Shown here: piece by piece, positions 986 to 34,771 of the stretch
Layout: each line of letters opens with the position of its first letter
Position numbering within the stretch: the stretch's first letter is position 1
Assembly (NCBI GenBank): GCA_039654915.1
Contig: CM077594.1
Coordinates: forward strand, 85,326,893-85,390,892
Reading direction: 5' to 3'
From: Aquilaria yunnanensis
Lineage: Eukaryota; Streptophyta; Magnoliopsida; Malvales; Thymelaeaceae
Length of the DNA stretch: 64,000 nt
The notes under the pieces: model-generated
Told to the model about the DNA's origin: nothing
Database searches by the model: none
The model's input: only the letters and a program-made list of their open reading frames with translations
Program-made: the position numbers and the translations under genes

Positions 986-1251
986 TGTGGCAACGTCGGG
1001 TTTTCTGGAGTCGCCACCAATCAGTTTACTTAGGTCGATTGGTCACCTAAAATATGGTCTGCGAGAGTTCGGGGGTTCGGGAGTACGGTTACGTTGAAAC
1101 AACTTTGTTAAAACGCCCAAAAATTGGCACCTTAGTTGATTTTAATTTTGTTTTACTTTGCTTTTAAAAAAATTTCAGTTAATTTAGATATTTTAACTGA
1201 ATTAGTCGAAAATGTGGATTTTTGGTAATTAAGTTGGATAAAATTTGATAC

Positions 1252-2878
1252 TTCCGAACCATGGACTCTGCCGAGTCATTTGGACACGGAAGATTTTTGA
1301 TTCCGAACCATGGACTCTGCCGAGTCATTTGGACACGGAATTTGGTGAAATTTTAAACAATTTTATCCATATTGTAAAAATATGGATTTTTATCTTTTTA
1401 TTTAATTTATTTATTTTAAAAAAATTGATATTTTCCAAACCGTAGATCCTGCCGGATCATCCGGATATGGAAATTGATTTACTTAATCGTAATTATTTAA
1501 TTCCTGAAATTAATTTTTTAAAAGGTAATGATTTTTAATACTAACTAAAAATTTGTCTTTATATTTTTACTTCTTTTTTTTTCTTTCTTTTCTTTTCTTT
1601 TTTTTTTTATCTTTTATCTTATTTTTCTTATCTTCTTTTTTTTTTTTATTTCTTTTTTTATCTTTCTTTTATTTCTTTTTTTTATCTTTCTTTTATTTTT
1701 ATCTGATTTTTTTCTTAATTTATAAAAGAATTCAAAAGCAATTAATTTTTTTATTTAATAAGAAGTTAATTTAAAGGAATCAAAGAGTTTAAAAAAAATA
1801 AAATAAAAAAAAAATCTTTGATCATGGTACGGGGCGTTGTTACTCAGCCAGACCCTCTTCACCAGGTGAAGCAGCTCAAAAGCGGGCACGAGACAGTTTC
1901 CAGCCAATATACCATGAACTAATTTTTTATAAAAATAATTATTTAATACCAGAATTTTATTTATTTACCAAAGAAAACAAAAGAGTTGAAAATAAAATCT
2001 TAATTCTCATGTATTTGATTTTTTATTTAAAAGATTAACCAAAATTAATTATTCAATAAAATAATAAAGAAAAGATTTATATAAAGAAAGTCTTGATATT
2101 TATACATATTTATTTTTTAAGCTTATTTTTTTTGATTTGATAAAAGATGAACCAAGAAAGTAATTATTTAATCAAGGTTTTTGTTTATTTAATGAAGAAA
2201 ACTAAAGATTTATATGTATATTTTAAAAATAAAAGTGAAGCCTTAATATTTTATTTAATAAAAGGTGAATCAAAAAGTAAACAAAACTTTATTTATTTAA
2301 TGATGAAACCGGAAATTTATATATATATTTCAAAAATAAAATAAAAATCTTAATATTTGTTTGTTTTATTTTTGATAAAAAAATTAAGCAAAAATGATTA
2401 TTTAATAAGGAAAATAAAGGTAAAGTTTTGATATTTATATAATTTATTTTGAAAAAAGATTAAAGAAATCAAAGATTTATATGTATAAAAAGTTTTTGAT
2501 ATTTATATGATTTTTTTTTATGTTCTTTTTGTTTGCTAAAAGATTTTTATTATTACCTTTATTTGAAATCATTTGAATAAAATTTTATTTAATAAAGGAA
2601 ACAAAAACAAAAAAAAAATGTTATATCTTTTTTTTATTATTTTGAAAGAAATAAGTAAAATATTAGCCCAAGAAAATTTTTACTCCTTTATTCTTTTTAT
2701 TAATAAAGAAACCAAAAAAATTATATTTTATTATTTTGCTGGATAAAGAGATAAATAAAAAATATTAGTCCAAAGTTTTTTTTTTATTTTTTTAATAATA
2801 AAGGAAAATTTATTTATATACTTTATTTAAAAAATATTTTCCAAGCCATGGATCCTGGCGGATCATTTGGACATGGAA
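1252..2878. repeat. Four copies of a 40-bp quasi-palindrome in the LTR
   Basis: Copies lie at 1252-1291, 1301-1340, 1433-1472 and 2839-2878. Each runs from TTCC to GGAA and folds on itself: outer TTCCG/CGGAA, then CCA/TGG, then GACTC-TGCC-GAGTC in the first two copies. The third and fourth copies vary in the stems (for example GATCC..GGATC) yet keep the pairing pattern. The other LTR has the same set at 23467-23506, 23516-23555, 23648-23687 and 25056-25095. Role unknown. Confidence 0.8.
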
Positions 2879-3179
2879 TTTAATTTCTTTTTTATATTTC
2901 ATTATTAATTATTAATTAGAAAAAAACATCACTTTTAAAGATGTATTTAAAAAAAAATTTGTATTTATTTATTTATTTATTTCATTATGTTTGTTTATAA
3001 AAAAATAATTTTTATTAGCCTTTAGGAAATTATTCACATAAAATTCCTTTTTTTTAATCTTTTAGTTAAAAAAAAAAAAAATTAATAAAGTGGGGCTTTT
3101 TGGCCATCCACTTTAATAACACAATAATAAAAGTTAGCACAATTAATATAGTTAGTTGTTAATAACAATAAAAAAAGTT

Positions 3180-3600
3180 AGTAAAGTTAGATTAACAATT
3201 AACAACAATAATAAAAATTAGCCAAGTTTAATTAAGTCAATTAATTAACAACAATAATAAAAGTTAGCCAAGTTTAATTAAGTTGATTAATTAACAACAA
3301 TAAATAAAAGTTAGCCAAGTTTAATTAAGTTAATTAATTAACAACAATAATAAAAAGAAATTAGTCAAGTTAATTAAATTAATTAATTAACAACAATAAT
3401 AAAAAGTTAGTCAAGTTAATTAAATTAATTAATTAATTAGCAACAATAATAAAAAGTTAGCCAAGTTAATTAAATTAATTAATTAATAACAATAATAAAA
3501 AGTTAGCCAAGTTAATTAAATTAATTAATTAACAACAATAATAAAAAGTTAGCCAAGTTAATTAAATTAATTAATTAACAACAATAATAAAAATTAATTA
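3180..3600. repeat. AT-rich tandem repeat inside the LTR
   Basis: About eight units of 46-56 bp built on TTAGCCAAGTTAATTAA followed by an AATTAATTAACAACAATAAT block. The copy in the other LTR is at 25396-25817. No coding potential. Confidence 0.8.
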
Positions 3601-3893
3601 ATTGTTAACAACAATTATAAAAGTTAGTAATAATGCAAAAATTAAAAGGTTAGTAACAATAATAATATTAAAAGTTAGTTGTTAGTAAGTCAATAACAAC
3701 AATAAAAAGAAGATTAGTAATAATAACAATAATTAACAAATAAATAAACAAGTAAAAATTAAAAAGGTTAGTAATTTATTCTGCAGGAACAAAAATAAAA
3801 GGTTAGTGACCAAATTGAAAGAAATTGAAAAGATGAAGTATGGAATCAAGGTTTCACCTTTCAAAACAAGTTTTTGAATCTGAAGAACAGAGA

Positions 3894-4050
3894 CGCGAAG
3901 GCGCGCGCGAAAGGAGGGGGAGGCAGGGGCAGCTGGCGGCGCGGCGGGGCGGCGAGGCGGCGCGGCGGCGAGGGCGGCGAGGCGGAGGGACGGCGGCGGC
4001 TGCGGGCAGCGAGGGGCACGGCGGAGAGAGAGAGAGAGAGAAAGAGAGAG
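3894..4050. other. GC-rich block and GA microsatellite in the LTR
   Basis: A sharply GC-rich, CpG-rich stretch (GGCGGCG-type runs) inside an otherwise AT-rich LTR, followed by an AG dinucleotide run at 4025-4050. In element sense it lies about 150-310 nt downstream of the TATA box, in the predicted transcript leader. The identical block in the promoter-proximal LTR is 26111-26267. Confidence 0.75.
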
Positions 4051-4197
4051 GGAACAGCAGTGAAAAAAAAAATTTGGCTTTCTGGGGAAGAAGGGAAGAG
4101 GGCTGGGGCTAAGGGCTGTAATTTTCTCTTTTTTTTAAAACGGAGCTCTAAGTTTTTTTGCTATTTTTTTCTGTGTTCAGAACTGAATTTGGGGGGG

Positions 4198-4205
4198 TAT
4201 TTATA
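4198..4205 (-). promoter_or_regulatory. TATA box of the LTR (3' copy)
   Basis: TATAAATA on the minus strand, about 515 bases from the LTR start, a normal place for the U3 core promoter. The copy that would drive the element is at 26415-26422. Confidence 0.65.
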
Positions 4206-4724
4206 GAAGGAGCTTAGCTGAACTGTGGACGGATAAATTAATAAAAAATATCAAACTTATCTTTTAAATTGGTAAAATGACAGTTTCAGTCCTTTACGTT
4301 ACTCCAGCTCTGGATAAGCTCAGAAGCTTCTGATTTTGACAATTTTAACGTTTTCTGTCAATTTGGGCCAGAAACGTCCGTTTAGGCCCAAAATTGACGC
4401 GAAAAATTACCCAAAGCTCCTGAAACTTTCAGAATTTGTCAATTTTGTCCGAAACTTCTCAATTTTGTCATTTTTACCTCAAACTTTTAATTTTTTTGTC
4501 ATTTTTTCCTGAAATTTTATTTTTATTTCAAACACATACATATTCACACATATATTATTTTAAATCAAATCTTCTCAAAATAAAAATATATTTTAAACTA
4601 ATTAACATAATTAAAATTTTTTAGCAATAATAATAATAATAATGATAATTTTTTTAATTAGTTTTTTTTTTTTTTTTTAAAAATTTTTAAAAAAAACCCG
4701 GACGAAATTGGGTGTCAACAGCTG

Positions 4725-4825: not shown

Positions 4826-7800
4826 GTGGTTAAGGAAAATTTTTTTAGAGCCTCTGCGATAAGAACTCTCCTATCGTTGAAGGGAAAATTTGATAATTTT
4901 GAGGTTAAGGGTCCTACCTTAGAACCTCGACAATAGGAACTCTCCTATCGTTTGAAGTAAAATTGATGATTTTGAGGTTAAGGGTCCTACCTTAGAACCT
5001 CGACGATAGGAACTCTCCTATCGTTTGAAGGAAAATTGTTTGAATGAGGTTAAGGGTCCTACCTTAGAACCTCGACGATAGGAACTCTCCTATCGTTTGA
5101 AGGAAAATTGATGATTTTGAGGTTAAGGGTCCTACCTTAGAACCTCGACAATAGGAACTCTCCTATCGTTTGAAGGAAAATTGATGATTTTGAGGTTAAG
5201 GGCCCTACCTTAGAACCTCGACGATAGGAACTCTCCTATCGTTTGAAGGAAAATTGTTTGAATGAGGTTAAGGGTCCTACCTTAGAACCTCGACGATAGG
5301 AACTTTCCTATCGTTTGAAGGAAAATTGATGATTTTGAGGTTAAGGGTCCTACCTTAGAACCTCGACGATAGGAACTCTCCTATCGTTTGAAGTAAAATT
5401 GATTGAATGAGGTTAAGGGTCCTACCTTAGAACCTCGACGATAGGAACTCTCCTATCGTTTGAAGGAAAATTGATGATTTTGAGGTTAAGGGCCCTACCT
5501 TAGAACCTCGACGATAGGAACTCTCCTATCGTTTGAAGGAAAATTGATGATTTTGAGGTTAAGGGTCCTACCTTAGAACCTTGACGATAAGAACTCTCCT
5601 ATCGTTTGAAGGAAAATTGATTGTTTTGAGGTTAAGGGTCCTACCTTAGAACCTCGACGATAGGAACTCTCCTATCGTTTGAAGGAAAATTGATGATTGA
5701 GGTTAAGGGTCCCACCTTAGAACCTCGACGATAGGAACTCTCCTATCGTTTGAAGGAAAATTGATGATTTTGAGGTTAAGGGTCCTACCTTAGAACCTCG
5801 ACGACAGGAACTCTCCTATCGTTTGAAAGAAAATTGATGATTTTGAGGTTAAGGGTCCTACCTTAGAACCTCGACGATAGGAACTCTCCTATCGTTTGAA
5901 AGAAAATTGATGATTTTGAGGTTAAGGGTCCTACCTTAGAACCTCGACGATAGGAACTCTCCTATCGTTTGAAGGAAAATTGATGATTTTGAGGTTAAGG
6001 GTCCTACCTTAGAACCTCGACAATAGGAACTCTCCTATCGTTTGAAGGAAAATTGATGATTTTGAGGTTAAGGGTCCTACCTTAGAACCTCGACGACAGG
6101 AACTCTCCTATCGTTTGAAGGAAAATTGATGATTTTGAGGTTAAGGGTCCTACCTTAGAACCTCGACGATAGGAACTCTCCTATCGTTTGAAGGAAAATT
6201 GATGATTTTGAGGTTAAGGGTCCTACCTTAGAACCTCGACAATAGGAACTCTCCTATCGTTTGAAGGAAAATTGATGATTTTGAGGTTAAGGGCCCTACC
6301 TTAGAACCTCGACGATAAGAACTCTCCTATCGTTTGAAGGAAAATTGATTGAATGAGGTTAAGGGTCCTACCTTAGAACCTCGACGATAGGAACTCTCCT
6401 ATCGTTTGAAGGAAAATTGATGATTTTGAGGTTAAGGGTCCTACCTTAGAACCTCGACAATAGGAACTCTCCTATCGTTTGAAGGAAAATTGATGATTTT
6501 GAGGTTAAGGGCCCTACCTTAGAACCTCGACGATAGGAACTCTCCTATCGTTTGAAGGAAAATTGTTTGAATGAGGTTAAGGGTCCTACCTTAGAACCTC
6601 GACGATAGGAACTTTCCTATCGTTTGAAGGAAAATTGATGATTTTGAGGTTAAGGGTCCTACCTTAGAACCTCGACGATAGGAACTCTCCTATCGTTTGA
6701 AGTAAAATTGATTGAATGAGGTTAAGGGTCCTACCTTAGAACCTCGACGATAGGAACTCTCCTATCGTTTGAAGGAAAATTGATGATTTTGAGGTTAAGG
6801 GCCCTACCTTAGAACCTCGACGATAGGAACTCTCCTATCGTTTGAAGGAAAATTGATGATTTTGAGGTTAAGGGTCCTACCTTAGAACCTCGACGATAGG
6901 AACTCTCCTATCGTTTGAAGGAAAATTGATTGTTTTGAGGTTAAGGGTCCTACCTTAGAACCTTGACGATAAGAACTCTCCTATCGTTTGAAGGAAAATT
7001 GATTGTTTTGAGGTTAAGGGTCCTACCTTAGAACCTCGACGATAGGAACTCTCCTATCGTTTGAAGGAAAATTGATGATTGAGGTTAAGGGTCCCACCTT
7101 AGAACCTCGACGATAGGAACTCTCCTATCGTTTGAAGGAAAATTGATGATTTTGAGGTTAAGGGTCCTACCTTAGAACCTCGACGACAGGAACTCTCCTA
7201 TCGTTTGAAGGAAAATTGATGATTTTGAGGTTAAGGGTCCTACCTTAGAACCTCGACGATAGGAACTCTCCTATCGTTTGAAGGAAAATTGATGATTTTG
7301 AGGTTAAGGGTCCTACCTTAGAACCTCGACAATAGGAACTCTCCTATCGTTTGAAGGAAAATTGATGATTTTGAGGTTAAGGGTCCTACCTTAGAACCTC
7401 GACGACAGGAACTCTCCTATCGTTTGAAGGAAAATTGATGATTTTGAGGTTAAGGGTCCTACCTTAGAACCTCGACGATAGGAACTCTCCTATCGTTTGA
7501 AGGAAAATTGATGATTTTGAGGTTAAGGGTCCTACCTTAGAACCTCGACAATAGGAACTCTCCTATCGTTTGAAGGAAAATTGATGATTTTGAGGTTAAG
7601 GGCCCTACCTTAGAACCTCGACGATAAGAACTCTCCTATCGTTTGAAGGAAAATTGATTGAATGAGGTTAAGGGTCCTACCTTAGAACCTCGACGATAGG
7701 AACTCTCCTATCGTTTGAAGGAAAATTGATGATTTTGAGGTTAAGGGTCCTACCTTAGAACCTCGACAATAGGAACTCTCCTATCGTTTGAAGGAAAATT

Positions 7801-8418
7801 GATGATTTTGAGGTTAAGGGTCCTACCTTAGAACCTCGACGACAGGAACTCTCCTATCGTTTGAAGGAAAATTGATGATTTTGAGGTTAAGGGTCCTACC
7901 TTAGAACCTCGACGATAGGAACTCTCCTATCGTTTGAAGGAAAATTGATGATTTTGAGGTTAAGGGTCCTACCTTAGAACCTCGACAATAGGAACTCTCC
8001 TATCGTTTGAAGGAAAATTGATGATTTTGAGGTTAAGGGCCCTACCTTAGAACCTCGACGATAGGAACTCTCCTATCGTTTGAAGGAAAATTGATGATTT
8101 TGAGGTTAAGGGTCCTACCTTAGAACCTCGACAATAGGAACTCTCCTATCGTTTGAAGGAAAATTGATGATTTTGAGGTTAAGGGCCCTACCTTAGAACG
8201 TCGACGATAGGAACTCTCCTATCGTTTGAAGGAAATTGATTATTTTGAGGTTAAGGGCCCTACCTGAGAACCTCGACGATAGGAACTCTCCTATCGTTTG
8301 AAGAAAAATTGATGATTTGAGGTTAAGGGCCCTTCCTTAGAACCTCGACGATAGGAATTCTCCTATCGTTTGAAGGAAAATTGATGGAATGAGGTTAAGG
8401 AAATCTCCTTGAACCTCG
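4826..8418. repeat. 73-bp hairpin-forming tandem array in the Ogre 3' region (about 49 copies)
   Basis: The unit is about 73 bp, with some shorter variants where GATGATTTT is replaced by a GAATGAG junction. Each unit holds a perfect 8-bp stem, CGATAGGA-ACTC-TCCTATCG, and a second inverted repeat, GAGGTTAAGG..CCTTAGAACCTC. Diagnostic variants (AACTTTCC at 5301 and 6610; AAGTAAAATT at 5391 and 6700; GACGATAAG at 6311 and 7620) recur at an offset of 1,309 bases, showing a higher-order duplication of about 18 units. Tandem repeats in the 3' region are a known Ogre trait and can seed genomic satellites. The array lies between the LOG-like gene and the polypurine tract. Confidence 0.95.
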
Positions 8419-8936: not shown

Positions 8937-9566
8937 TTATGGGATCGAACTGTTCGGGAAAGACTGTCGCGTCCAGTCTATCTGAATCATTGCTGGATCT
9001 GGTTCAGGAACAAAAGCTTGTATTTTATCTAGCAATTCTTCAGCAGTTGTTGCGGATATTATGATTCGCCGTGCCACTCTTGATATAAAATTCTTCTGCA
9101 TAGCATAATCCATAAAAGCTATCAGACCTGTAAAGAAATTGTTAACATTTAAAAGCCCAATGGGTTTCTTATGCAAATTAAGTTGGGCCATGGAAGCAAT
9201 TTGAAAGACTTCTCCCAATGTGCCAAAACCACCTGGTAGAGCGATAAAAGCATCAGCATTTAAAAGCATTTGTAACACACGCTCTTGTAAATTTTTAACC
9301 ACTAATTCTTCTCCAATCGTGCCCCCAGAAATAAATTTCAGAGGTCCAGGGATAATGCCCAGAACTTGACTTCCTCCTAGAGATGCTGCTGATGCTACAC
9401 CTCCCATTAATCCGACACTACCTCCTCCATAAACTAAATGTATTTTTCGCTCAGCTAATACTCTACCCAAATGGTTGGCTGCTTTTAAATACTCTTCATC
9501 TTTTCCAGGAAAAGCCCCAGAAAATACACAAATACTTCGGGATTTACGAGTTGGGGTTTTCTCCAT
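8937..9566 (-). CDS. LONELY GUY-like cytokinin riboside 5'-monophosphate phosphoribohydrolase carried by the Ogre element
   Basis: A 209-aa intronless ORF. The LOG family releases active cytokinin bases from their nucleotides in the cytosol. The sequence shows the Rossmann-like pattern VYGGGSVGLMG at about 45-55, a conserved Arg at 96 (context NLQERVLQM) and the family motif PGGFGTLGE at 111-119 with its Glu at 119. Arg and Glu match the catalytic pair described for LOGs. The Lys that usually follows the Arg is Val here, and the N-terminal FCGSS-type loop reads FSGAF, so it is a divergent member. I start at the ATG at 9566; the open frame extends 20 codons further but without an ATG, into the TATA box. 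Length is close to typical plant LOGs (about 210-220 aa). Plant LOG genes normally have several introns, so I infer capture through an mRNA copy. It runs in element sense, downstream of pol. Family assignment is secure; activity is not shown. Confidence 0.9.
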   Translation of the reverse strand: MEKTPTRKSRSICVFSGAFPGKDEEYLKAANHLGRVLAERKIHLVYGGGSVGLMGGVASAASLGGSQVLGIIPGPLKFISGGTIGEELVVKNLQERVLQMLLNADAFIALPGGFGTLGEVFQIASMAQLNLHKKPIGLLNVNNFFTGLIAFMDYAMQKNFISRVARRIIISATTAEELLDKIQAFVPEPDPAMIQIDWTRQSFPNSSIP

Positions 9567-9598
9567 TCCTATCCTTACCCTTGTGAGAAAAGAGGATA

Positions 9599-9606
9599 TA
9601 TTTATA
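9599..9606 (-). promoter_or_regulatory. TATA box of the LOG-like gene
   Basis: TATAAATA in the context CTCTATAAATATATCC, a good plant TATA box, 33 nt upstream of the ATG at 9566. With usual spacing the transcript would start only about 5-10 nt before the ATG, an unusually short leader. Confidence 0.6.
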
Positions 9607-9642
9607 GAGATGAAGAGATAAGGCAATAATTTTATTTTTCAA

Positions 9643-10110
9643 GAATGGATACATTATTGCCAGCTATTCATAGTAGTCACGGGTATGACTCTGGTCAGGT
9701 ATGGGTACACTATCGTTAAAAGAGGAGGAAAATTTTCAAAATAGCTGCTAGCATGTACAGTAGTCGCGACTGTAGCTTATGTCAGGAGTAGGTACATGAT
9801 TGTCGGATGAGAAGGAAAATTTCAAAAGTGGCAGGTATATACAGTAGTCATAATTATAGCTCATGTCAGGAGTGGGTACATTATGGGAGGAAAATTTCAA
9901 AAGCGTCAGCTAGCATGTACAGTATCGTGACTATGGCTTATGTCAAGAGTGGATACATTATTGCTGAAAGAGGAGGAAAATTTCAAAAGCGACAGCTAGC
10001 ACGTACAGTAATCGTGACTTTGGTTCATGTCAGGAGTGGATACATTATTACCAAAAGGGGAGGAAAATTTCAAAAGCGACAGCTAGCACGTACAGTAATC
10101 GTGACCTTGT
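9643..10110 (-). repeat. Upstream module amplified in front of the LOG-like gene (about 5.4 copies of 78-87 bp)
   Basis: On the plus strand each unit carries GCTAGCATGTACAGTA, a GTCGTGACT-type motif, CATGTCAGGAGTGG, TACATTATTG and GAGGAAAATTTCAAAAG. The GTACAG landmarks fall near 9671, 9755, 9839, 9917, 10003 and 10090. Single related copies stand upstream of the TATA boxes of two cysteine-rich ORFs (about 10855-10930 and 11690-11770). Its constant place, element-sense upstream of a TATA box, suggests a cis-regulatory module. That is inference; a passive tandem repeat is the alternative. Confidence 0.7.
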
Positions 10111-10155
10111 TCCGTCTTCTACTGGCTTTGCGTCCAGTAACGGCTTCAATGCTTT

Positions 10156-10704
10156 CTATGAATCAGTGATTTGCATCTCATCTAGCTTTTTCACAAACTG
10201 GCAAACAGGGTCGTTTAGGGTCAGATTCCCAAGACTGTAACGTTCTCGTTCTTTTTGGAGAATTATCCATAATCCAACAACCTCAAATTGCACTATTCCG
10301 CAAGAATGCGCTTCAAGAACCTCTCGGATATCTTCCAGAGATTCCTTACGCAAGCCATTCTTGATGAATTTTATTCTATCATTACGATTTCTGGTGATCA
10401 CTCCTGGAGAACGACATTTATTGCCGCAAATCCACCATCCACAATTGTGACAGACGCCTAGCCTCTTTGCTCTTCTCTTTTTGGCATAAACGCTTTTACC
10501 AAAGCCGGGCATACGGGGAAAGAACGCATCTGGAACTTCACCAGCCGAACGAACTTTAGCTTCGATTAGCCACCGCACATTATCAGGAATGCCTTTGTGC
10601 ATAAATAGTCGGAATCGTTCACATCTAGCTTGATAAACCTTTTTAAGAACATTTATTGGGAAAGAAGGGAAATATTTTCGTAGAGCGGAAAGAGAAGGCT
10701 CCAT
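10156..10704 (-). CDS. Cysteine-rich basic protein, copy 1 (viral nucleic-acid-binding-protein-like)
   Basis: 182 aa from the ATG aligned with the two sister copies; another in-frame ATG lies five codons upstream at 10719. Features in order: hydrophobic/basic N-terminus (LRKYFPS), KGIPDNVRWLIEAKVR near 37-52, a basic patch KKRRAKR at 75-81, four cysteines at 85, 88, 93 and 97 (CX2CX4CX3C), then a FIKNGL helix near 113-118. The basic patch followed by a Cys cluster and an FI-x-x-G segment resembles the cysteine-rich nucleic-acid-binding proteins of carlavirus-type plant viruses, some of which act in silencing suppression or in the nucleus. The Cys spacing is tighter than I expect there, so homology is probable, not proven. 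Alternative: a derived retroelement zinc knuckle. It runs in element sense with its own TATA box. Confidence 0.8.
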   Translation of the reverse strand: MEPSLSALRKYFPSFPINVLKKVYQARCERFRLFMHKGIPDNVRWLIEAKVRSAGEVPDAFFPRMPGFGKSVYAKKRRAKRLGVCHNCGWWICGNKCRSPGVITRNRNDRIKFIKNGLRKESLEDIREVLEAHSCGIVQFEVVGLWIILQKERERYSLGNLTLNDPVCQFVKKLDEMQITDS

Positions 10705-10812
10705 TGATGAATGAGGCATTTAAGAGAAAAAGAAAGAAATTAGTGATTGTAGGAAATGGAAATAACTGAATTTGGGAGTTATGGAGTACCGTATCCAGAA
10801 GGAAGAACACGC

Positions 10813-10819
10813 ATTTATA
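10813..10819 (-). promoter_or_regulatory. TATA box of cysteine-rich ORF copy 1
   Basis: TATAAAT in the context CATCACTATAAATGCGTG, 109 nt upstream of the ATG at 10704. The surrounding sequence is shared with the unit at 11638-11644. A copy of the module seen in front of the LOG-like gene lies just upstream in element sense. Confidence 0.6.
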
Positions 10820-10968
10820 GTGATGAAAGGATAATGCGTTTATTACACTTACGGAAGTAAGTACATTATTGCCAAAAGAAAAGACAAATGACAGCTTATA
10901 TGTACAGCAATCATGACTGTGGCTCTCATCTTCCACTAATTCATGTCCAGTAATGGCTTCAATGCCTT

Positions 10969-11517
10969 CTATAAGTCGGGGATTTGCTTCCCATCTAGTT
11001 TTCTTACAAACTGACAAACGGGGTCGTTTAAAATCACATTCCCAAGACTGTAACGGTTTCGTTCTTTATGGTAAGTCCTCCATAAACCGATAATTTCACC
11101 TTGCACTTTTCCACAAGAATGCGTTTCAAGAGTCTCTCGGATATCTTTCAGAGACTCCTTACGCAGGCCATTCTTAATGAATTTTCTTTTATCTTCACGA
11201 TTTATGGAGATGTATCCTAAAGAGAGACATTTAGTATTACAATTCCATCGCCCACATTTATAACACACGCCTAGTCTCTTTGCTCTTCGCCTTTTGGCAT
11301 AACGGCTTTTACCTAAACCGGGCATGCGGGGCATAAATGCATCTGGAACTTCACCCGCCAAACGGACCTTAGCTTCAATTATCCACTGCACATTATCGGG
11401 AATGCCTTTGCGTGTAAAAACTCTGATTCTTTCACATCTAGCAAGGTAGATCTTTTTAAGGACTTTTAGTGGGAGGGAAGGAAAGTATTTTCGCAGTACA
11501 GAAAGAGTAGAATCCAT
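10969..11517 (-). CDS. Cysteine-rich basic protein, copy 2 (viral nucleic-acid-binding-protein-like)
   Basis: 182 aa, the same length as copies 1 and 3 with no indel between them, although many residues differ. It keeps C85, C88, C93 and C97, the strongest basic run (KRRRAKR, 75-81), FIKNGLRKESL at 113-123, the HSC at 133-135 and the conserved tail LNDPVCQFVRKLD. It starts at its only suitable ATG. It belongs to a tandem unit of 813-838 bp together with its upstream leader and TATA box. Equal length and retained cysteines across diverged copies argue for coding constraint. A nucleic-acid-binding role is inferred from the Cys cluster and basic patch. Confidence 0.8.
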   Translation of the reverse strand: MDSTLSVLRKYFPSLPLKVLKKIYLARCERIRVFTRKGIPDNVQWIIEAKVRLAGEVPDAFMPRMPGLGKSRYAKRRRAKRLGVCYKCGRWNCNTKCLSLGYISINREDKRKFIKNGLRKESLKDIRETLETHSCGKVQGEIIGLWRTYHKERNRYSLGNVILNDPVCQFVRKLDGKQIPDL

Positions 11518-11637
11518 TGATGAGAGAAGAATTTGAGAGAAGAGGGAAATGAATCAGTTATTGCAGGAAACTGGAATAATCGACTTTAGAAGTCACGGGG
11601 TATCTTATCTGTTGTTTAATCAGAAGGAAGAACACGC

Positions 11638-11644
11638 ATTTATA
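11638..11644 (-). promoter_or_regulatory. TATA box of cysteine-rich ORF copy 2
   Basis: TATAAAT in the same CATCACTATAAATGCGTG context as copy 1, 121 nt upstream of the ATG at 11517, with a degenerate copy of the shared upstream module beyond it (about 11690-11770). Confidence 0.6.
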
Positions 11645-11806
11645 GTGATGAAAAGGGATAACGTGTCGATTACACTTAGGGGAGCATGTACATCTGTCAA
11701 AAGAAAATGCAAATTTTTCCAAATATAACAAACTGTATGTACAGTAATTGTGACTGTGGCTTACATCTTCCACTGGTTTTACGTCCAGTAACGGCATTAA
11801 CGGCTT

Positions 11807-12355
11807 CTATGAGTCGAGGATCTGCTTCCCATCTAGCTTTCTTACAAGCCGGCAAACAGGGTCGTTTAAAGTCAGATTCCCGGGACTGTAACGGTCTCGT
11901 TCTTCATGAAAAATACTCCATAAATCAAGAATTTCACGTTGCACAGATCCACAAGAATGCGTCTCAAGAGTCAATTGGATATCATCCAATGAGTCCTTAC
12001 TCAAGCCATTCTTGATGAACCGTATTTTATCTTCTCGATTATTGGAGATCATTCCTAAAGAACGACACCTAGTCTTACAAGTCCACCTACCACATTTATG
12101 GCAGACTTGTAATCTTTTCGCTCTTCTTTTTCTGGCATAAGAACTTTTGCCAACACCAGGCATGTAAGACACAAATGCCTCTGGGATTTCACCTGCCAGA
12201 CGAACCTTAGCTTCAATTAACCACCGCACATCTTCAGGGATTCCTTTATGCATCAGAGCTCTTAATCGTTCACAGCGAACTTGGTAGATCTTTTTTAGGA
12301 TGTTCATTGGGAGAGAAGGGAAATACTTTCGCAAGGCGGAAAAAGTAGGATCCAT
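11807..12355 (-). CDS. Cysteine-rich basic protein, copy 3 (viral nucleic-acid-binding-protein-like)
   Basis: 182 aa, the copy nearest to pol. It keeps the four cysteines in the CX2CX4CX3C arrangement, the basic run (RKRRAKR), FIKNGLSKDSL and the LNDPVCRLVRKLD tail. Its leader matches copies 1 and 2 for about 80 bases (AGTACCGTATCC-type sequence on the minus-strand side), but the TATA-containing segment of the other two is absent. It may instead be expressed from the element transcript or from sequence near 12470-12500. It is an open frame with no damage. Function is inferred only from resemblance to viral nucleic-acid-binding proteins. Confidence 0.78.
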   Translation of the reverse strand: MDPTFSALRKYFPSLPMNILKKIYQVRCERLRALMHKGIPEDVRWLIEAKVRLAGEIPEAFVSYMPGVGKSSYARKRRAKRLQVCHKCGRWTCKTRCRSLGMISNNREDKIRFIKNGLSKDSLDDIQLTLETHSCGSVQREILDLWSIFHEERDRYSPGNLTLNDPVCRLVRKLDGKQILDS

Positions 12356-13743: not shown

Positions 13744-16700
13744 TTATGCAAAGTATTTCTTTACTGCATCCGAATTTACTGGCTTCGGTAATTCTCGTCC
13801 ATCCATTTCTGTCAGAATTAGTGCCCCTCCTGAAAATGCTTTCTTCACGACATATGGCCCGTCATAATTTGGTGTCCATTTTCCTCTTGAATCATGTTGC
13901 ATGGGTAAAATTTTCTTGAGCACTATGTCACCCTCGTGAAATTGTCGTGGGCGAACCTTTTTGTTGTAAGAACGAATCATCCTTCTTTGATAAAGTTGCC
14001 CATGGCAGAGGGCTATCATTCTTCTTTCATCAATTAGATTTAATTGCTCGTATCTAGCTTTGACCCATTCTGCTTCTCTTAATTGAGTATCCATTAGTAC
14101 CCTTAATGAAGGTATTTCAACTTCGATGGGCAATACAGCCTCCATACCGTATACCAGAGAAAAAGGTGTTGCTCCAGTAGAAGTACGGGTAGAAGTTCTA
14201 TAAGCATGTAGTGCAAAAGGTAACATCTCATGCCAGTCCTTGTAAGTGACGATCATCTTTTCAACAATTCTCTTGATATTTTTATTGGCCGCTTCTACTG
14301 CACCATTCATCATTGGTCGATAAGGTGCCGAATTGAGATGTTTGATTTTGAACTGCCGGCACAAAGTCTGCATCATTGCATTGTTCAGGTTCGTGGCATT
14401 GTCTGAGATGATACATTCCGGCGGCCCATAACGACAAATGATTTCTTTCTTAATGAACCGGCATACCACCTTTTGAGTCACACTTGCATATGACATAGCT
14501 TCTACCCATTTAGTGAAGTAGTCAATTGCCACTAGGATGAATTTGTGACCATTGGAAGCTTTAGGGGTAATGGCTCCAATGACGTCAATTCCCCACATGG
14601 CAAAAGGCCAAGGTATTGCTGTTACATTAAGAGGGGTGGGTGGAGCTTGGATCTTGTTGGCATATATTTGACATTTGTGACATTTTCTCACGTGATTAAT
14701 ACAATCACTTTCCAATGTGAGCCAATAGTAGCCAGCCCTCATTATTTGTCTTGCCATGGTATGACCACTAGTGTGTGCTCCACATATTCCAGAATGAACT
14801 TCTTCCATGATCTTTCGTGCTTCATGAGTATCTACACAGCGAAGTAGCATCGAGTCTGGGGTTTTCTTGTAGAGTATGTCTAGGTTTAAAAGAAAACCCA
14901 TTGACAATCTTCGTAGAAATTTCTTGTCATTTTCTGATGCTTCTAGTGGATATGTTCGTTCTTGGAGGTATTTCTTGATATCATGATACCAAGGCTTTCC
15001 ATCCAATTCTTCTTCGATGCTCATGCAATAAGCTGGAGAATCTATTATTTTCATCTCGAACACAGGAGTATGCTCAGGGTCGCTTATCTTGTACATAGCA
15101 GCCAAAGTAGCTAAAGCGTCTGGGATTTGATTATCTTCCCTTGGAAGATGATGGAAACTTATACTGTTAAATCTTCGAGTCATGTCTAGTATAAGCTTTT
15201 GGTAAGGGATTAATTTTGAATCTCTTGTCTCCCATTCTCCATTGATTTGATATATGACTAATGCGGAATCCCCATAGACTCGGAGATCTCGCACTTTCAA
15301 ATCCAATGCCATTTGGAGTCCCATAGCACATGCTTCATACTCTACTATATTGTTGGTACAAGGAAATGTAATTTTTGCTGTGAGGGGAAACTGCTCTCCG
15401 CTTGGAGAGATGAGTATAGCTCCGATCCCTTGTCCCAAAGCATTAGATGCTCCATCGAATGCCATTTTCCATGTTTCATTTTCTTCATCGACTTCCTGTT
15501 CTATCGTCATTATATCTCCATCAGGAAAGTCCATTCTCATGGGCTCATAATCCTCCAATGCTCTATCAGCCAGATATTCAGCGATCACACTTCCTTTTAC
15601 GGCCTTTTGGGTGACATACTGTATGTCGTATTCAGATAACAGCATTTGCCATTTTGCAATCCTGCCTGATAAAGCGGGTTTCTCGAAAATGTACTTAATG
15701 GGGTCAGTCTTGGAGATCAGTAATGTTGTGTTGTTGAGCATGTAGTGTCGTAGTCGATGTGCTACCCATGCAAGGGCACAACAGGACTTTTCTACTATTG
15801 AGTATTTAGCTTCATATGTGGTAAGCTTTTTGCTCAAATAGTAAATTGCATGCTCCTTCTTGCTTGTCTCATCACGTTGACCCAATACGGATCCTAATGA
15901 AGAATCCTGTATGGATAAATATAGAATCAACGGTTCTCCGGATCGAGGTGGTATCAAGACTGGTGGATTTGATAGATATCGTTTGATTTTCTCGAACGCT
16001 TCTTGGCATTCGTTATTCCACTCAATCGGATTGTTCTTCTTTAGTGATTTGAAAAGCGGTTCACACTTGGACGTCAATTGTGATATGAACCTTGCTATGA
16101 AGTTGATTCTACCCAGAAAACTTCTTACTTGTTTTGGAGTCTTCGGGGGTTGCATTTCTTGTATCGCTTTGACTTTACTCGGGTCAACTCGAATCCCGTC
16201 CTTGCTGACTATGAAACCCAATAACTTTCCTGAAGAGGCTCCAAAAGTACATTTGGCAGGATTCAACTTCAATTGATATTTGCGAAGTCTATCGAATAGT
16301 TTTCTTAGCACTTTTAGATGCCCCCCAGCAGTGAAAGTTTTGGCGATCATGTCGTCCACATATACTTCAATTTCTTTATGCATCATGTCATGGAACAACG
16401 TGACCATGGCTCTTTGATATGTAGCACCAGCATTCTTTAACCCGAAAGGCATCACCTTATAGTAGAAGGTACCCCAAAGGGTAATAAAAGCAGTTTTTAT
16501 CATGTCATCTGGATCAAGTTTGATTTGATTGTATCCAGAAAAACCATCCATGAAGGAAAAGTAGGAGTTTCCTGCGGTATTATCCACCAGTGTATCAATA
16601 TGAGGAAGTGGGAAGTTATCTTTAGGACTGGCTTCGTTCAAAGGCCGGTAGTCCTGACAAACTCTTAGTTTCCCACTTTCTTTCTTTTCGACTGGGACAA

Positions 16701-17142
16701 TGTTAACCACCCATTCTGTATATTCAGCGACCCCAAGAAATCCTGCATCCCACAGCTTTCGAATCTCATCTTTTACTCTTAAGATTAACTCCGGCTTTAA
16801 TCTTCGTAACTTCTGTCTGACAGGCTTCGCCCCAGGCTTCAAAGGTATTTTGTGTAGTACTATGTCTGAGCTTAAGCCAGGCATATCTTGGTATGACCAA
16901 GCGAATACATCCACATATTCTTTCAATAAATGGACTAATTCTTCTTTTTCTTCAGGAGGGAATAAAGTGCCAATCTTGACTTCTTTTACATCCTGACTGT
17001 CTCCCAGGTTGAATACCTCAGTTGGTTCTTGACTTGTTGCTCTTTCTTTTTCATCTCGCTCAATCATTTTTAATAGCTCAGGAGATACTTGAAGATCTTC
17101 GTCATCCGAGTCGGTAGTGTTTACAGGATTATCAAAGTTCAT
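13744..17142 (-). CDS. Ogre pol: reverse transcriptase, RNase H regions, integrase
   Basis: 1,132 aa, open throughout. Reverse transcriptase: QDYRPLNEA at 163-171, FMDGFSG at 197-203, MPFGLKNAGATYQRAM at 231-246, YVDDM at 261-265. A first RNase H/connection region at about 405-470 lacks the usual catalytic Asp context. A second, archaeal-type RNase H at about 558-685 has Asp563, Asp625 and Asp675. The integrase has an HHCC region (about 783-824) and D853, D914, E950 in DX60-DX35E spacing. Two RNase H-like regions mark the Tat clade. In vivo it is probably not translated from its own ATG: splicing of the intron at 17174-17376 joins it in frame to gag-protease. It copies the RNA and integrates the cDNA. 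Confidence 0.95.
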   Translation of the reverse strand: MNFDNPVNTTDSDDEDLQVSPELLKMIERDEKERATSQEPTEVFNLGDSQDVKEVKIGTLFPPEEKEELVHLLKEYVDVFAWSYQDMPGLSSDIVLHKIPLKPGAKPVRQKLRRLKPELILRVKDEIRKLWDAGFLGVAEYTEWVVNIVPVEKKESGKLRVCQDYRPLNEASPKDNFPLPHIDTLVDNTAGNSYFSFMDGFSGYNQIKLDPDDMIKTAFITLWGTFYYKVMPFGLKNAGATYQRAMVTLFHDMMHKEIEVYVDDMIAKTFTAGGHLKVLRKLFDRLRKYQLKLNPAKCTFGASSGKLLGFIVSKDGIRVDPSKVKAIQEMQPPKTPKQVRSFLGRINFIARFISQLTSKCEPLFKSLKKNNPIEWNNECQEAFEKIKRYLSNPPVLIPPRSGEPLILYLSIQDSSLGSVLGQRDETSKKEHAIYYLSKKLTTYEAKYSIVEKSCCALAWVAHRLRHYMLNNTTLLISKTDPIKYIFEKPALSGRIAKWQMLLSEYDIQYVTQKAVKGSVIAEYLADRALEDYEPMRMDFPDGDIMTIEQEVDEENETWKMAFDGASNALGQGIGAILISPSGEQFPLTAKITFPCTNNIVEYEACAMGLQMALDLKVRDLRVYGDSALVIYQINGEWETRDSKLIPYQKLILDMTRRFNSISFHHLPREDNQIPDALATLAAMYKISDPEHTPVFEMKIIDSPAYCMSIEEELDGKPWYHDIKKYLQERTYPLEASENDKKFLRRLSMGFLLNLDILYKKTPDSMLLRCVDTHEARKIMEEVHSGICGAHTSGHTMARQIMRAGYYWLTLESDCINHVRKCHKCQIYANKIQAPPTPLNVTAIPWPFAMWGIDVIGAITPKASNGHKFILVAIDYFTKWVEAMSYASVTQKVVCRFIKKEIICRYGPPECIISDNATNLNNAMMQTLCRQFKIKHLNSAPYRPMMNGAVEAANKNIKRIVEKMIVTYKDWHEMLPFALHAYRTSTRTSTGATPFSLVYGMEAVLPIEVEIPSLRVLMDTQLREAEWVKARYEQLNLIDERRMIALCHGQLYQRRMIRSYNKKVRPRQFHEGDIVLKKILPMQHDSRGKWTPNYDGPYVVKKAFSGGALILTEMDGRELPKPVNSDAVKKYFA

Positions 17143-17173
17143 TCTTTCATTGTCATCAAAGAGAGTTTTGGGT

Positions 17174-17376
17174 CTGCATTATCCAGAGAGAAAAGAAAGA
17201 GAAGAGAGAAAAAAAAAATGGCACGAATGAGATGGATGCAAACTGGTACTTTATTTACAATGTGCATAAATCACAACTTTATTGGAATAAAAAGCAATAA
17301 CTAAAAGGTTCACTTAAACAAAGACTACACCCTATTGATTGAACCTTTCTTTAGGAGGTTTTTACTATTAGATTAC
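17174..17376 (-). other. Predicted intron joining gag-protease to pol
   Basis: On the minus strand GTAATC follows CCAAA at 17376; the gag-pro TAA stop overlaps the donor. The acceptor is ATAATGCAG ending at 17174, preceded by a long pyrimidine tract (about 17183-17218). Removal of 203 bases leaves the Lys codon intact, then adds ten codons and reaches the pol ATG in frame with no stop, for a fusion of about 2,245 aa. An intron at this place is an established Ogre feature; the exact sites are my prediction. Confidence 0.8.
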
Positions 17377-20300
17377 TTTGGAAAGCTTTCAATTATAACA
17401 GGCAGTTCTATCGCCTCCCAATTGTTCAGCACATCCCGTGGGCCACAAGGTTGAATGAGCTCCTCCTCTTCAGGTGAATCGCTGATGATTGCCTGAATAG
17501 AAAGACTTTCAAAAGACTTGTTGATGTTGATAGTCAGCTTGCCTTCATTGTCATTTTTTGGAATGAGACCACCACTCACGAACGTTTCGGTGATTTCAGG
17601 GATATCCAGATTTCTTTCCTGGAGAGGATGCCCTGTTAATCGTGCAATCCTCTTTTCTCTCTTTTCAGCTATTGCCTTCATTTTATCATGTCTTGTCGGT
17701 GTGAAGCCTAGGCCGTATTTCCCTTCATTTGTGGTGATTTTCAATGGTTCTGTGATTCCTTGTAAATCTTGTCCCAATCCTAACCCCGGTGAGTATCCTC
17801 CTTTTATCATGAGTTTGGCAACCATGCGACTTGTTTTAGAGATGCTAGGAATGGGTTCTTCTTCATATTCGCTGACATAAGCAGCATTGACAATCTCAAA
17901 AGACCTGAAGGAGCAATCAGGTACATTTTCATTGACTTCGACATATTGAGCATCCGCAGGTCTTGATAGCAGGATGTCTTCTTCAGCGAAGACCGTGATT
18001 ATCTTTCCTTCAATAATGAATTTCATTTTCTGGTGTAATGAAGAAGGAATTGCTCCGGCCATATGGATCCATGGTCTTCCCAGCAGGCAGGTATAAGATG
18101 GACAAATATCCATGACTTGGAATGTGATGTGGAAAAGACAGGGACCAATCCCTATTGGTAGCTCTATTTCTCCAACAACATCTCTCTTCGTTCCGTCAAA
18201 TGCTCGAACAACAATATGACTGTTGTTGAGGTGTGATGGGTCTAAACCGATCTTATGTAAAGTTTCTAATGGCATTACATTTAGAGCTGATCCATTGTCG
18301 ATCAGAACTCTAGCCATAATCCGATCTTTGTATTTAATCGAAATATGTAGAGCCTTAGAGTGACCCCTTCCTTCTGCTGGTATCTCATCGTCAGTGAATG
18401 TGATGAGATTTTGTGCCGTGATGTTGTTGACAAGGTGGTCAAAGTTGTTCACGGAGATATCTTGTTCAACATAAGCCTTATTCAGGACTTTGAGAAGAGC
18501 TTCTCGATGGGCATCAGAACTTAAGAGCAATGAAAGTATGGAGATCTTTGCTGGCAGACGGTTCAACTGCTCCACGATGCTGTATTCACTTTGCTTTATG
18601 AGTTTGAGAAACTCAGTAGCTTGTTCATCTGTTACTGCTCGAGGCATCTCTTGCTCTTTAGATGTGTTAATAGGTCCATTTGCTGGATCCGTAACATTCT
18701 TCTCTTGTTGGAGCTTGTTCATTTGCTCGGGAGAATAACACCGACCGCTTCTAGTCATGCCCCCAACTTCTAACGGAGTTGATGTGATGTTAGAAGTATA
18801 GCCATAGTTCCATGGAACAGTTTTGTCTGATTTGTACGGGAATGGCTTTGGAACTTGAATTCTTAAAGGCTTGAGAGCAGATTTTGAGATTGGAATGACT
18901 AGTGGCCTTGGCATGATATTGACTTCTTGTTCTTTAATTATCACATTCACGTCATCCTCTTTATCTGACATAAAAACGATGATTTGGGAGGAGTCCATGA
19001 GACTTTGTAGACTTTTACGGAATTCTGGGCATTCTTGGATAGAATGACTCTTACTGTTATGAAAGTTGCACCATTCCTCATGCTCGACTTCTTTATTTCC
19101 AGAAGACTTTCCTATGATAATCCCTTCTTTCACAAGGCATGAATATACATGCTTAAGAGGGGTTATGATATCATTGACTGTTTTCTTCATCGGCCAGTAT
19201 TCTTCCATCATATTGACTGGTTTGGCTTGATGAGGAGGCAATGGATTATGAGTGACGTTTGGTTCATCGGAGAAGTCCAACCACTTTGACTCAATTAATT
19301 GTTGGACTATACGCTTCAATGCTATGCAATTTTCGAGTCCGTGGCCCACGGCACCATCATGATATGGGCAATTTAGTTTAGGGTTATACCATGTTGGATA
19401 TGGGGGTTCGAATGGCCTTGTGGGAATTGGGTGAATGAGTTGGCTCTGGATGAGTTTTGGATATAACTCAGTATAAGTCATGGGAATCGGTGCGAAAATT
19501 TCTCTTGGTCTTGGTGCAGGCATTGGAGGAGTCGGAACAGGTGGCCGTAACTGATTAGGCCTGTTGAGAGGATAATTGTTGGGTCTATTGGGAAGATAAT
19601 CACTGGGCCTATTTGGAGGATAATCATTGGGCCTATTGGTAGGATAATAATTGGGCCTGTTGGCAGAATAGGATAGGCGAGGTCCGGTAGCCACGGTACC
19701 CACGAGGGGAATCCCTCTTCCTCGTCCGATTTGTTGTATTTCTTCATCTTTTCTTCTGGATGGTCCTCCTCTTTTCATAGGATCACTAAAGGACTCAGTA
19801 ATCTTCCCGGTCCTGATACCATGCTCGATCCTTTCTCCGGACATGACTACGTCGGAGAAGTTAGTTGCCGCATTGCCAATAAGTTTGTCATAATATGGGT
19901 ATTTCAGTGTCTGGACAAACAAAGTGACCATTTCTCTTTCTGTCATGGGTGGCTGTACTTGTGCAGCTAAGTCCCTCCATCGTTGGGCATATTCCTTAAA
20001 AGTTTCTGTTTTTTTCTTCTCCATGTTTTGGAGAGTTTGGCGATCCGGAGCTAAGTCCATAACATGTTTATAGTTGCCGATGAAGGCCTGAGCAAGGTCA
20101 TTCCAAGTTTTTATGTTTCTTGGACCTTGGCTTAGATACCACTGTAATGCTGATTTTGTGAGACTTTCCTGAAAAAGTGCGATCCACACCTTCTCATCTT
20201 TGGTAAGTGGTTGTAGTCTTCTGAGAAACAAAGTGATGTGAGTGATGGGATCACTCGTTCCATCGTATTTTACGAAATCTGGCACCTTAAAATCTGAAGG

Positions 20301-20684
20301 GATTACGACGTCTGGCACTAAGCAGAGGTCATCCACTGAAAGGGATCCGAATATAGTGCCTCCTTCAATGGCTCTCAGTCTTTTCTCTATTGTCTCGATT
20401 TTTTGAGATTCTGCTTCATCTTTTGGTAATGTCTTCTTCTCTTCCTGTACAGTGTCTTGTTTCAGGTGAACACTAGCAGAGGGTCCTGATTCTTGAAACA
20501 GGTTTTCTTGGACTGAGACTCGTTGCGGGGTGAATCCCGGGGGATAAGTGGGATCTTGTACTTCTTTGATGGGGACTTGAGTTGCTTTCCCTTTGATTAA
20601 TTCCATCAATTGTTTCATCTGTTCTGACATACTTTCAATCTTGGACTCCATCTCCATGAGACGTCCTTCGGCTTGTTCTGCCAT
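17373..20684 (-). CDS. Ogre gag-protease polyprotein
   Basis: 1,103 aa. Gag core at about 120-295 (WNDLAQAFIGNYK, ETFKEYAQRWRDLA). A proline-rich linker with a repeated NRPN-x-YP motif at 342-377. Two zinc-knuckle-like CHHC motifs, CPYHDGAVGHGLENC near 439-453 and CNFHNSKSHSIQEC near 539-552. A retropepsin-like protease with LIDNGSALNVM at 794-804 (catalytic Asp796) and LLGRPW near 867-872. A G-patch-like segment GYSPGLGLGQDLQG near 963-976. It forms the capsid and cleaves the polyprotein. It starts at the ATG at 20684, 193 nt downstream of ORF1. The stop codon overlaps the splice donor of the intron leading into pol. No frameshift or stop is seen. Confidence 0.95.
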   Translation of the reverse strand: MAEQAEGRLMEMESKIESMSEQMKQLMELIKGKATQVPIKEVQDPTYPPGFTPQRVSVQENLFQESGPSASVHLKQDTVQEEKKTLPKDEAESQKIETIEKRLRAIEGGTIFGSLSVDDLCLVPDVVIPSDFKVPDFVKYDGTSDPITHITLFLRRLQPLTKDEKVWIALFQESLTKSALQWYLSQGPRNIKTWNDLAQAFIGNYKHVMDLAPDRQTLQNMEKKKTETFKEYAQRWRDLAAQVQPPMTEREMVTLFVQTLKYPYYDKLIGNAATNFSDVVMSGERIEHGIRTGKITESFSDPMKRGGPSRRKDEEIQQIGRGRGIPLVGTVATGPRLSYSANRPNYYPTNRPNDYPPNRPSDYLPNRPNNYPLNRPNQLRPPVPTPPMPAPRPREIFAPIPMTYTELYPKLIQSQLIHPIPTRPFEPPYPTWYNPKLNCPYHDGAVGHGLENCIALKRIVQQLIESKWLDFSDEPNVTHNPLPPHQAKPVNMMEEYWPMKKTVNDIITPLKHVYSCLVKEGIIIGKSSGNKEVEHEEWCNFHNSKSHSIQECPEFRKSLQSLMDSSQIIVFMSDKEDDVNVIIKEQEVNIMPRPLVIPISKSALKPLRIQVPKPFPYKSDKTVPWNYGYTSNITSTPLEVGGMTRSGRCYSPEQMNKLQQEKNVTDPANGPINTSKEQEMPRAVTDEQATEFLKLIKQSEYSIVEQLNRLPAKISILSLLLSSDAHREALLKVLNKAYVEQDISVNNFDHLVNNITAQNLITFTDDEIPAEGRGHSKALHISIKYKDRIMARVLIDNGSALNVMPLETLHKIGLDPSHLNNSHIVVRAFDGTKRDVVGEIELPIGIGPCLFHITFQVMDICPSYTCLLGRPWIHMAGAIPSSLHQKMKFIIEGKIITVFAEEDILLSRPADAQYVEVNENVPDCSFRSFEIVNAAYVSEYEEEPIPSISKTSRMVAKLMIKGGYSPGLGLGQDLQGITEPLKITTNEGKYGLGFTPTRHDKMKAIAEKREKRIARLTGHPLQERNLDIPEITETFVSGGLIPKNDNEGKLTININKSFESLSIQAIISDSPEEEELIQPCGPRDVLNNWEAIELPVIIESFPK
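19560..19670 (-). repeat. In-frame 27-bp minisatellite in gag
   Basis: About four to five copies of a unit encoding NRPN-x-YP-x-type residues (gag residues 342-377). On the plus strand it shows as repeated GGGCCTATTGG- and GATAATCATTGGG-type blocks. Length is a multiple of three, so the frame is preserved. Confidence 0.75.
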
Positions 20685-34443: not shown

Positions 34444-34768
34444 TGTTGAAGATTGCCTCAACTTTGTTCTTAACCTTCATCCCACATGGACTAGGAAACA
34501 AAGGCTTAATGCCTTAGCTCCATATTTACACCCTTCATCCCACATTGGCCATAGAAAGGGCATTGGTGCCTTCAACTCCTTATATAAGGAGCTTAGTTGT
34601 GGCAATTAGAATTCGTCCCACAATCTAGTAGTCACTTAGATTGTATTCTTCTTCTTTCTTAGTGAATTCTTTCTTCCGGCTTGCCGCCCGAGGTTTTTCC
34701 CCGATTTGGGGTTTTCCTCGTAAATTCTCGTGTCTCTTTTTTTTGTGCTTATGTTCTGATTCCTAACA
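34444..34768 (+). repeat. 5' LTR of the young copia element
   Basis: 325 bp, TGTTGAAG..CCTAACA. A TATA box (TATATAAG, 34581-34588) lies mid-LTR. One substitution against the 3' LTR, in the CTCTTTT(T/C)TTTGTGC stretch. Confidence 0.93.
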
Positions 34769-34771
34769 AAC

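Follow-up and report, generated by a model that had tools for sequence, protein, structure and literature searches.

Positions 986–26937 of a 64,000-nt stretch of the Aquilaria yunnanensis genome (assembly GCA_039654915.1, CM077594.1, 85,326,893–85,390,892; hereafter the window) are occupied by an intact Ogre element, a Ty3/gypsy retrotransposon of the Tat lineage that is 25,952 bp long and lies, with all of its features given below, on the minus strand. Its 5′ long terminal repeat (LTR; 23201–26937) pairs with a near-identical 3′ LTR (986–4720), from which it differs by one substitution and four 1-nt indels; the termini are TG…CA, and the 5-bp target-site duplication TATAT flanks the element. 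After pol (13744–17142) there follow four complete open reading frames (ORFs) in the sense of the element. The first three encode cysteine-rich proteins (CRPs) with a C4 zinc finger, recognized with Pfam: CRP1 (11807–12355, 182 aa), CRP2 (10969–11517, 182 aa) and CRP3 (10156–10719, 187 aa). The fourth is an intron-free LOG-type ORF (8937–9566, 209 aa), recognized with Pfam and a structure model. A 73-bp tandem array (4845–8400), located by repeat analysis, separates this block from the 3′ LTR. A preliminary description of the DNA had placed four intact sense ORFs between pol and the 3′ LTR of a young Ogre, and all four are present and complete at those positions.

The block recurs throughout the genome. 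A search of the same genome (842 Mb), the totals of which are lower bounds, returned at least 150 matches to CRP2, and 150 of the 150 listed were full length, free of stops and at least 99% identical. The LOG query gave at least 150 full-length stop-free matches (150/150 listed at 100% identity), a second LOG variant two residues apart gave at least 150 further matches (again 150/150 listed at 100%), and a CRP1 query of the type found in copies that lack pol gave at least 150 intact full-length ORFs (150/150 listed). Of the 150 matches listed for a CRP query of greater distance, 142 had no stop. In addition, 20 extra loci of this genome were fetched around CRP2 matches, so that the intactness of CRP2 there follows from the selection. 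CRP1 and CRP2 were intact at 20/20 of these loci and CRP3 and LOG at 19/19 of the loci spanning them; the fetch of L021 ended short of LOG and CRP3, and the CRP3 match in it is a paralogue. At 19 of the 19 sampled loci that span the whole block, all four ORFs were intact. By position between pol and the 3′ LTR and by retention in family copies, in a sample drawn from CRP2 matches, the four genes are accessory ORFs. A private insertion or an assembly join is rejected because the same ORFs are intact at 20 further loci. The preliminary description had proposed looking for other copies with the same block, and had named restriction to this copy, decay elsewhere and an assembly artefact as grounds for abandoning its proposal; the copies were found in the same genome and none of these grounds applies. 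The CRP genes sit in repeated units that are ~75% identical in DNA, which suggests that CRP1–3 are products of tandem duplication. One local cluster of copies, with six CRP2 matches in ~143 kb, was seen at G000:C3:14048770-14191468.

Three of the 20 sampled loci (L009, L010 and L011) match neither the pol protein nor the 3′ terminus of pol, and the other 17 retain the pol end. With their flanks, these three loci contain LTRs on both sides, a leader, a variable gag, the block and the repeat region, and neither ORF1 nor pol has a match of at least 120 bp in them. Little of gag remains in L009, and an open 375-codon piece remains in L011. L010 and L011 have LTR pairs of 100% identity, over 3,409 and 2,598 bp, and target duplications of CGATG and CTGGG, respectively, and the LTRs of L009 are 99.8% identical over 4.4 kb in one comparison with provisional ends. 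The pol-less copies thus appear to have moved recently, using enzymes borrowed from elsewhere. A spacer common to the three loci (84–89% alike), to which five matches occur within L012–L028, is abundant: 2,089 first-look candidates were obtained, and the best 40, which were scored, were all at least 98% identical. Fifteen of these 40 loci have, among the matches listed, an intact CRP1 and/or LOG as far away as expected (three of them have both), and for the remaining 25 the matches listed speak neither for nor against the block. Likewise, 18 of the 150 listed pol-less-type CRP1 loci have LOG downstream among the matches listed, and shifted controls for the spacer, CRP1 and LOG distances gave 0 in each of five. 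Near G000:C4:71634069-71637892 (L034), the pol-less copy of L009 has an LTR-like stretch in opposite orientation beside its LTR; this locus is therefore nested or rearranged.

Variation in the block ORFs is mostly synonymous. Between the pol-less copies and the window, 54.5 nonsynonymous and 101.5 synonymous differences were counted in 12 ORF comparisons, giving a ratio of nonsynonymous to synonymous differences per site (pN/pS) of 0.16. For the other 17 loci, the corresponding values were 45, 47 and 0.28 in 64 comparisons, omitting four (CRP2, CRP3 and LOG of L021 and CRP3 of L022). Among themselves, the CRP1–3 paralogues have dN/dS values of 0.27–0.31.

The preliminary description had called the CRPs viral-type and had suggested hidden Markov model searches against two viral families. 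All three exceed the curated Pfam cut-offs of both Viral_NABP (26.6–29.9 bits, cut-off 23) and Carla_C4 (21.9–25.6 bits, cut-off 20.9), and none of them matches an NCBIfam model at E ≤ 0.1. Protein relatives of CRP2 numbered 175 at E ≤ 0.01, of which the best 120 were listed; the named relatives among the matches listed are from Xanthoceras, Populus, Rhamnella and Orobanche. One Rhamnella gene model (P0104) contains both a CRP and a LOG domain. In an alignment of 117 rows of the CRP family (A3), 110 and 109 rows match Viral_NABP and Carla_C4, respectively, at E ≤ 0.01, the finger C-X2-C-X4-C-X3-C is present in 101, a basic stretch just before the finger in 108 and IEAKVR or IEAKVK in 101. The element proteins therefore resemble the CRPs of carlaviruses and betaflexiviruses in having a basic stretch followed by a C4 finger, as well as in passing both family cut-offs. 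However, the carlavirus finger is C-X2-C-X12-C-X4-C (PMC8839810), and this spacing is absent from the element CRPs, in which X2-X4-X3 replaces X2-X12-X4. The element CRPs further differ in their length of 182–187 aa, in their long conserved N- and C-terminal parts and in being encoded in plant genomes. A scan of IMG/VR with the CRP confirmed no relative. The structure model is weak (pLDDT, the predicted local distance difference test score, 66.6), and a BFVD search with it returned nothing at E ≤ 0.001; among the weak rows obtained with this weak model, nine of 17 are named as nucleic-acid-binding, RNA-binding or silencing-suppressor proteins, all from plant viruses, which we take to belong to the betaflexivirus family. 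On the grounds of finger spacing and of the IMG/VR scan, an identity with true carlavirus CRPs is rejected; ‘viral-type’ is apt as regards the two Pfam families and inapt as regards the cysteine spacing. Kinship with viral proteins is plausible, in either direction. Five pairs of CRP and LOG clusters have longest contigs of equal length (8723, 4511, 2425, 2128 and 1386), which hints at linkage of the two genes in other plants, although the short lengths may agree by chance.

The LOG-type ORF matches PF03641 at 1.3e-30, and its structure model (pLDDT 84.9) superposes on AtLOG structures with template-modelling scores, relative to the target, of 0.91–0.92, so that a LOG fold is predicted. Its motif PGGFGTLGE fits PGGxGTxxE, and the catalytic Arg and Glu are retained. 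In CgLOG, Arg99 and Glu122 have been proposed to be catalytic, Met96, Lys100 and Glu121 are assigned to the adenine, and Met96, His97, Lys100, Glu125 and Trp129 to the prenyl group (PMC4979012). The six pocket residues Met96, His97, Lys100, Glu121, Glu125 and Trp129 (CgLOG numbering) correspond to L, Q, V, G, Q and M in the window LOG, and thus none of the six is kept. The position of Ser19 is occupied by Ala, a change that in a LOG already studied raised activity rather than lowering it (PMC4979012). In 120/120 host LOG3-type proteins, all eight positions (the six of the pocket and the catalytic pair) are conserved. Among the best 120 relatives of the window LOG, Arg99 is kept in 116 and Glu122 in 118, Lys100 in four and Glu125 in five. 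A scan of IMG/VR with LOG confirmed no relative.

Compared with the host LOGs sampled (LOG3/LOG1-type proteins and AtLOG8), the element LOG is alike in its fold, its PGGxGTxxE motif and its catalytic Arg and Glu, and differs in being intron-free, in its replaced pocket residues and in grouping apart from them within the sampled rows. A quick tree built from 87 rows places the window LOG and 58 relatives in a single clade, with a support of 93 in the approximate likelihood-ratio test (SH-aLRT), which falls below the 95 mark of the tool, and of 97 against the host group. Most of these relatives are labelled retro-type by similarity and not by context; the label is supported by the finding that 35 of the 120 listed relatives come, by count, from Reevesia pubescens, with 16 chromosome labels. 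When a 50-aa piece of AtLOG3 was searched against the A. yunnanensis genome, three loci matched at 85–100% over residues 18–50 only, as at an exon edge, and the other 147 rows listed ran through at 51–58%. These unbroken matches suggest that the element LOGs are intron-free, as expected of RNA-mediated capture, and the element LOG is probably a gene captured through RNA. A C-terminal LxLxL occurs within the last 15 residues of 100/120 relatives (P0121–P0240) and of 0/120 host LOG3-type proteins, and in the retro-type relatives it is often preceded by a basic KKRK-like stretch. LxLxL is an EAR-like, repressor-recruiting motif. Judged by the motif match, such tails could recruit repressors in the nucleus; the tail is absent from the window LOG and from its closest listed relative, P0121. 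P0197 and P0219, which Populus records name LOGL10, group in the retroelement-type clade and, from this placement, are likely to be genes of transposons that carry a hormone-gene annotation. Annotators should therefore be aware that transposon genes may be included when hormone genes are counted in plant genomes.

Within the block, TATA-like sites with a putative promoter function lie 127 nt before the ATG of CRP2 (11634–11648), 100 nt before that of CRP3 (10809–10823) and 40 nt before that of LOG (9596–9610), and the pattern derived from these sites has exactly these three hits in 64 kb without a mismatch. Repeat analysis also located 87-bp repeats at 9719–10105 with a 19-nt motif common to the upstream regions of CRP2 and CRP3; this motif, written post hoc, has five occurrences, all upstream of block genes, and no shuffle reached five. 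Grande gene23 is an accessory gene with its own promoter (PMC7264820), and on this precedent CRP2, CRP3 and LOG may each have a promoter of their own.

We favor, at a probability of roughly 0.5, the reading that the four-gene block functions as an accessory module: nucleic-acid binding on behalf of the element is predicted for the CRPs and, for LOG with its rebuilt pocket, activity on a substrate other than the usual cytokinin nucleotides. The block likely helps the element because it is intact at hundreds of loci, even in pol-less copies that moved recently. Transcription of CRP2, CRP3 and LOG would start at internal TATA promoters belonging to each, in the manner of the accessory gene of maize Grande; the basic, zinc-binding CRPs would associate with the RNA of the element or have a nuclear role, and would dampen silencing, a function suggested by their resemblance to viral proteins and by that only; and LOG would hydrolyze or bind a nucleotide bearing on growth or defence. 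Because pol may be borrowed in trans and pol-less copies nevertheless hold the block, at least part of the benefit would go to the copy carrying it. A more far-reaching version, which we regard as rather unlikely, is that eudicot retrotransposons have kept a captured hormone enzyme and turned it into a nucleotide hydrolase of their own, the substrate of which is new and plausibly a signal in growth or defence; that in sister elements this enzyme bears an EAR-like tail; and that it is paired with zinc-finger kin of RNA-virus silencing suppressors. Pol-less satellites living off the parent element would keep this counter-host kit, so that the kit, and not the replicase, would have to be owned by each copy.

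Several observations weigh against the accessory-module reading. The matches listed in the same-genome search put intact copies first. Glu121 and Trp129 are kept in 114 and 117 of the best 120 LOG relatives and both are missing from the window LOG, the lineage of which has therefore diverged further than its family; this could reflect a loss of function in the window lineage. No TATA-like site was found within 330 nt upstream of CRP1, and the TATA pattern was defined post hoc, with 4/100 shuffles giving three hits at one mismatch or fewer. Sixteen of the 45 nonsynonymous differences counted for the 17 loci are a single private change in the window CRP2, recounted. Furthermore, L009 and L011 are ~99% like the window from CRP2 to LOG, and L010 is mixed (79% in the spacer ahead of CRP2 and 96% in CRP3), whereas the three loci are 92–95% like the window in CRP1, 78–87% in the region before CRP1 and 85–92% at matching LTR ends. 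As judged from these identities, the block has been exchanged between the pol-bearing and pol-less lineages, and the signal of selection is therefore not attributable to the pol-less lineage alone.

According to the alternative that fares best, the CRPs are nucleocapsid-like helpers that supply RNA binding in packaging or reverse transcription, and LOG is a side issue. The gag-pro ORF contains a G-patch domain, and a CCHC zinc knuckle was not detected in it with Pfam at E ≤ 1; the CRPs are basic and carry a conserved C4 finger, as would suit such a role. Moreover, when inspected by eye, gene models from other plants fuse CRPs to parts of retroelements: a retroelement-like stretch is joined to the CRP in Rhamnella P0086 and a protease-like stretch in Orobanche P0116, parts that we take to be integrase-like and protease-like. 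However, this alternative leaves LOG, the three diverged CRP paralogues and the separate TATA-like sites unexplained, and the pol-less copies retain the CRPs although helpers in packaging could be provided in trans. We consider it to be unlikely.

The preliminary description itself had proposed that LOG makes active cytokinin and that the CRPs suppress silencing, which would result in more division and less silencing where the element transposes. The LOG fold with its catalytic pair and the scores of the CRPs against Viral_NABP and Carla_C4 agree with this proposal, as do the nucleic-acid binding, the silencing suppression and, in one virus, the link to cell proliferation reported for carlavirus CRPs (PMC8839810). 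However, alanine at AMP-binding residues, including Lys100 and Glu121, almost abolished the activity of a bacterial LOG (PMC4979012), and all six pocket residues checked are replaced in the window LOG. With the NCBIfam equivalog for cytokinin LOG, which is a model for bacteria and archaea, the window LOG scores 98.7 bits where the cut-off is 300, and the finger spacing of the CRPs differs from that of carlaviruses. The term ‘cytokinin-activating’ is therefore unsupported by the pocket, despite the retained fold and catalytic residues, and so is an ordinary cytokinin LOG. What survives of the earlier interpretation is a conserved accessory block, intact in many copies of a young Ogre family, with CRPs that match viral nucleic-acid-binding families; the hormone-making part is not supported, and the proposal as a whole appears improbable. 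A LOG without catalytic activity that serves as a decoy or dimer poison, binding host LOG or nucleotides, would be consistent with a kept fold around a changed pocket, and in CgLOG the two subunits of the dimer jointly form the prenyl pocket (PMC4979012). The catalytic pair, for which such a decoy would have no need, is present in the window LOG and in 116/120 (Arg) and 118/120 (Glu) of the relatives, and we regard this explanation as quite unlikely. Finally, it is very doubtful that the block is neutral cargo copied along with the element in a recent burst, since, although very young copies such as this one look intact even without selection and the matches listed favor intact copies, the pN/pS and paralogue dN/dS values are low, the family is conserved in several eudicots and the block is also found in the pol-less lineage.

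Two Athila-like elements with a LOGL4-like ORF were reportedly described in a 2011 abstract by Steinbauerova and coworkers. Consensus LTR elements from two Citrus species and from Populus are on record as containing LOG/YgdH domains (PMC9289625, in which Steinbauerova et al., 2011 is cited). As in those elements, a LOG-family ORF is found here inside a plant Ty3/gypsy element; as far as the cited text extends, the present case differs in its intact Ogre, the three CRP genes beside LOG, the changed pocket and the pol-less lineage. These retrotransposon lineages are known to carry extra ORFs (PMC7264820, PMC11963269, PMC6317226). Accessory genes of the Grande type are antisense and belong to other families, in contrast to the four sense genes here, which belong to recognizable enzyme and zinc-finger families. 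A 2-ODD (AlkB) RNA demethylase is carried by Phalaenopsis Gypsy elements near Ogre (PMC9289625); these likewise hold a captured enzyme in a 25-kb Tat-type element, but the enzyme is a different one and CRP genes are unmentioned in the portion of that text cited. In a search of open-licence PubMed Central, retrotransposons with CRPs of this family, with all four genes combined in a block, or with such a block kept in the absence of pol did not come up. The remark in the preliminary description that no plant retrotransposon with this combination was known therefore stands, within that search, for the combination and has to be qualified for LOG in plant LTR elements, which was already in print (PMC9289625). 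Extra ORFs are common in plant LTR retrotransposons and nearly all are without a known use; this block offers as handles an enzyme of known chemistry with defined changes in its pocket residues and three CRPs matching silencing-suppressor families of RNA viruses. The pol-bearing and pol-less copies, both of which retain the block genes, provide a natural comparison.

In its order of pol domains and its split of gag-pro and pol, the remainder of the element conforms to the Ogre type. ORF1 (20878–22572) matches DUF7745, a plant-mobile-domain-like family, at 188 bits with Pfam, and the plant mobile domain profile itself gives 34.7 bits, just under its cut-off of 34.9; an extra ORF with this domain is present in 57% of Ogre elements (PMC6317226). 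The gag-pro ORF (17373–20684) comprises, according to Pfam, gag, a protease-like stretch under the cut-off and the G-patch. In Ogre, gag-pro and pol are two ORFs ~274 bp apart, an intron is known, and a second RNase H is located between the RNase H and the integrase (PMC6317226). Here, gag-pro and pol are separate, and the ORF limits leave between them a stretch of 230 nt (17143–17372) in place of the Ogre intron. The pol ORF encodes reverse transcriptase, RNase H, a second RNase H and integrase, and the second RNase H (RVT_3, residues 570–680) is located between RT_RNaseH (403–505) and Integrase_H2C2 (770–827) in the Pfam matches. All three frames, ORF1, gag-pro and pol, are open. Outside the Ogre element, a Copia-type element, typed by eye, is situated at 34444–39549; it has 325-bp direct repeats at its ends (34444–34768 and 39225–39549, 99.7% identical) and two long ORFs (35118–37424 and 37473–39113) that resemble a split gag-pol. 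A diverged direct repeat, ~75% identical over 1.15 kb, links 56337–57460 and 59109–60221.

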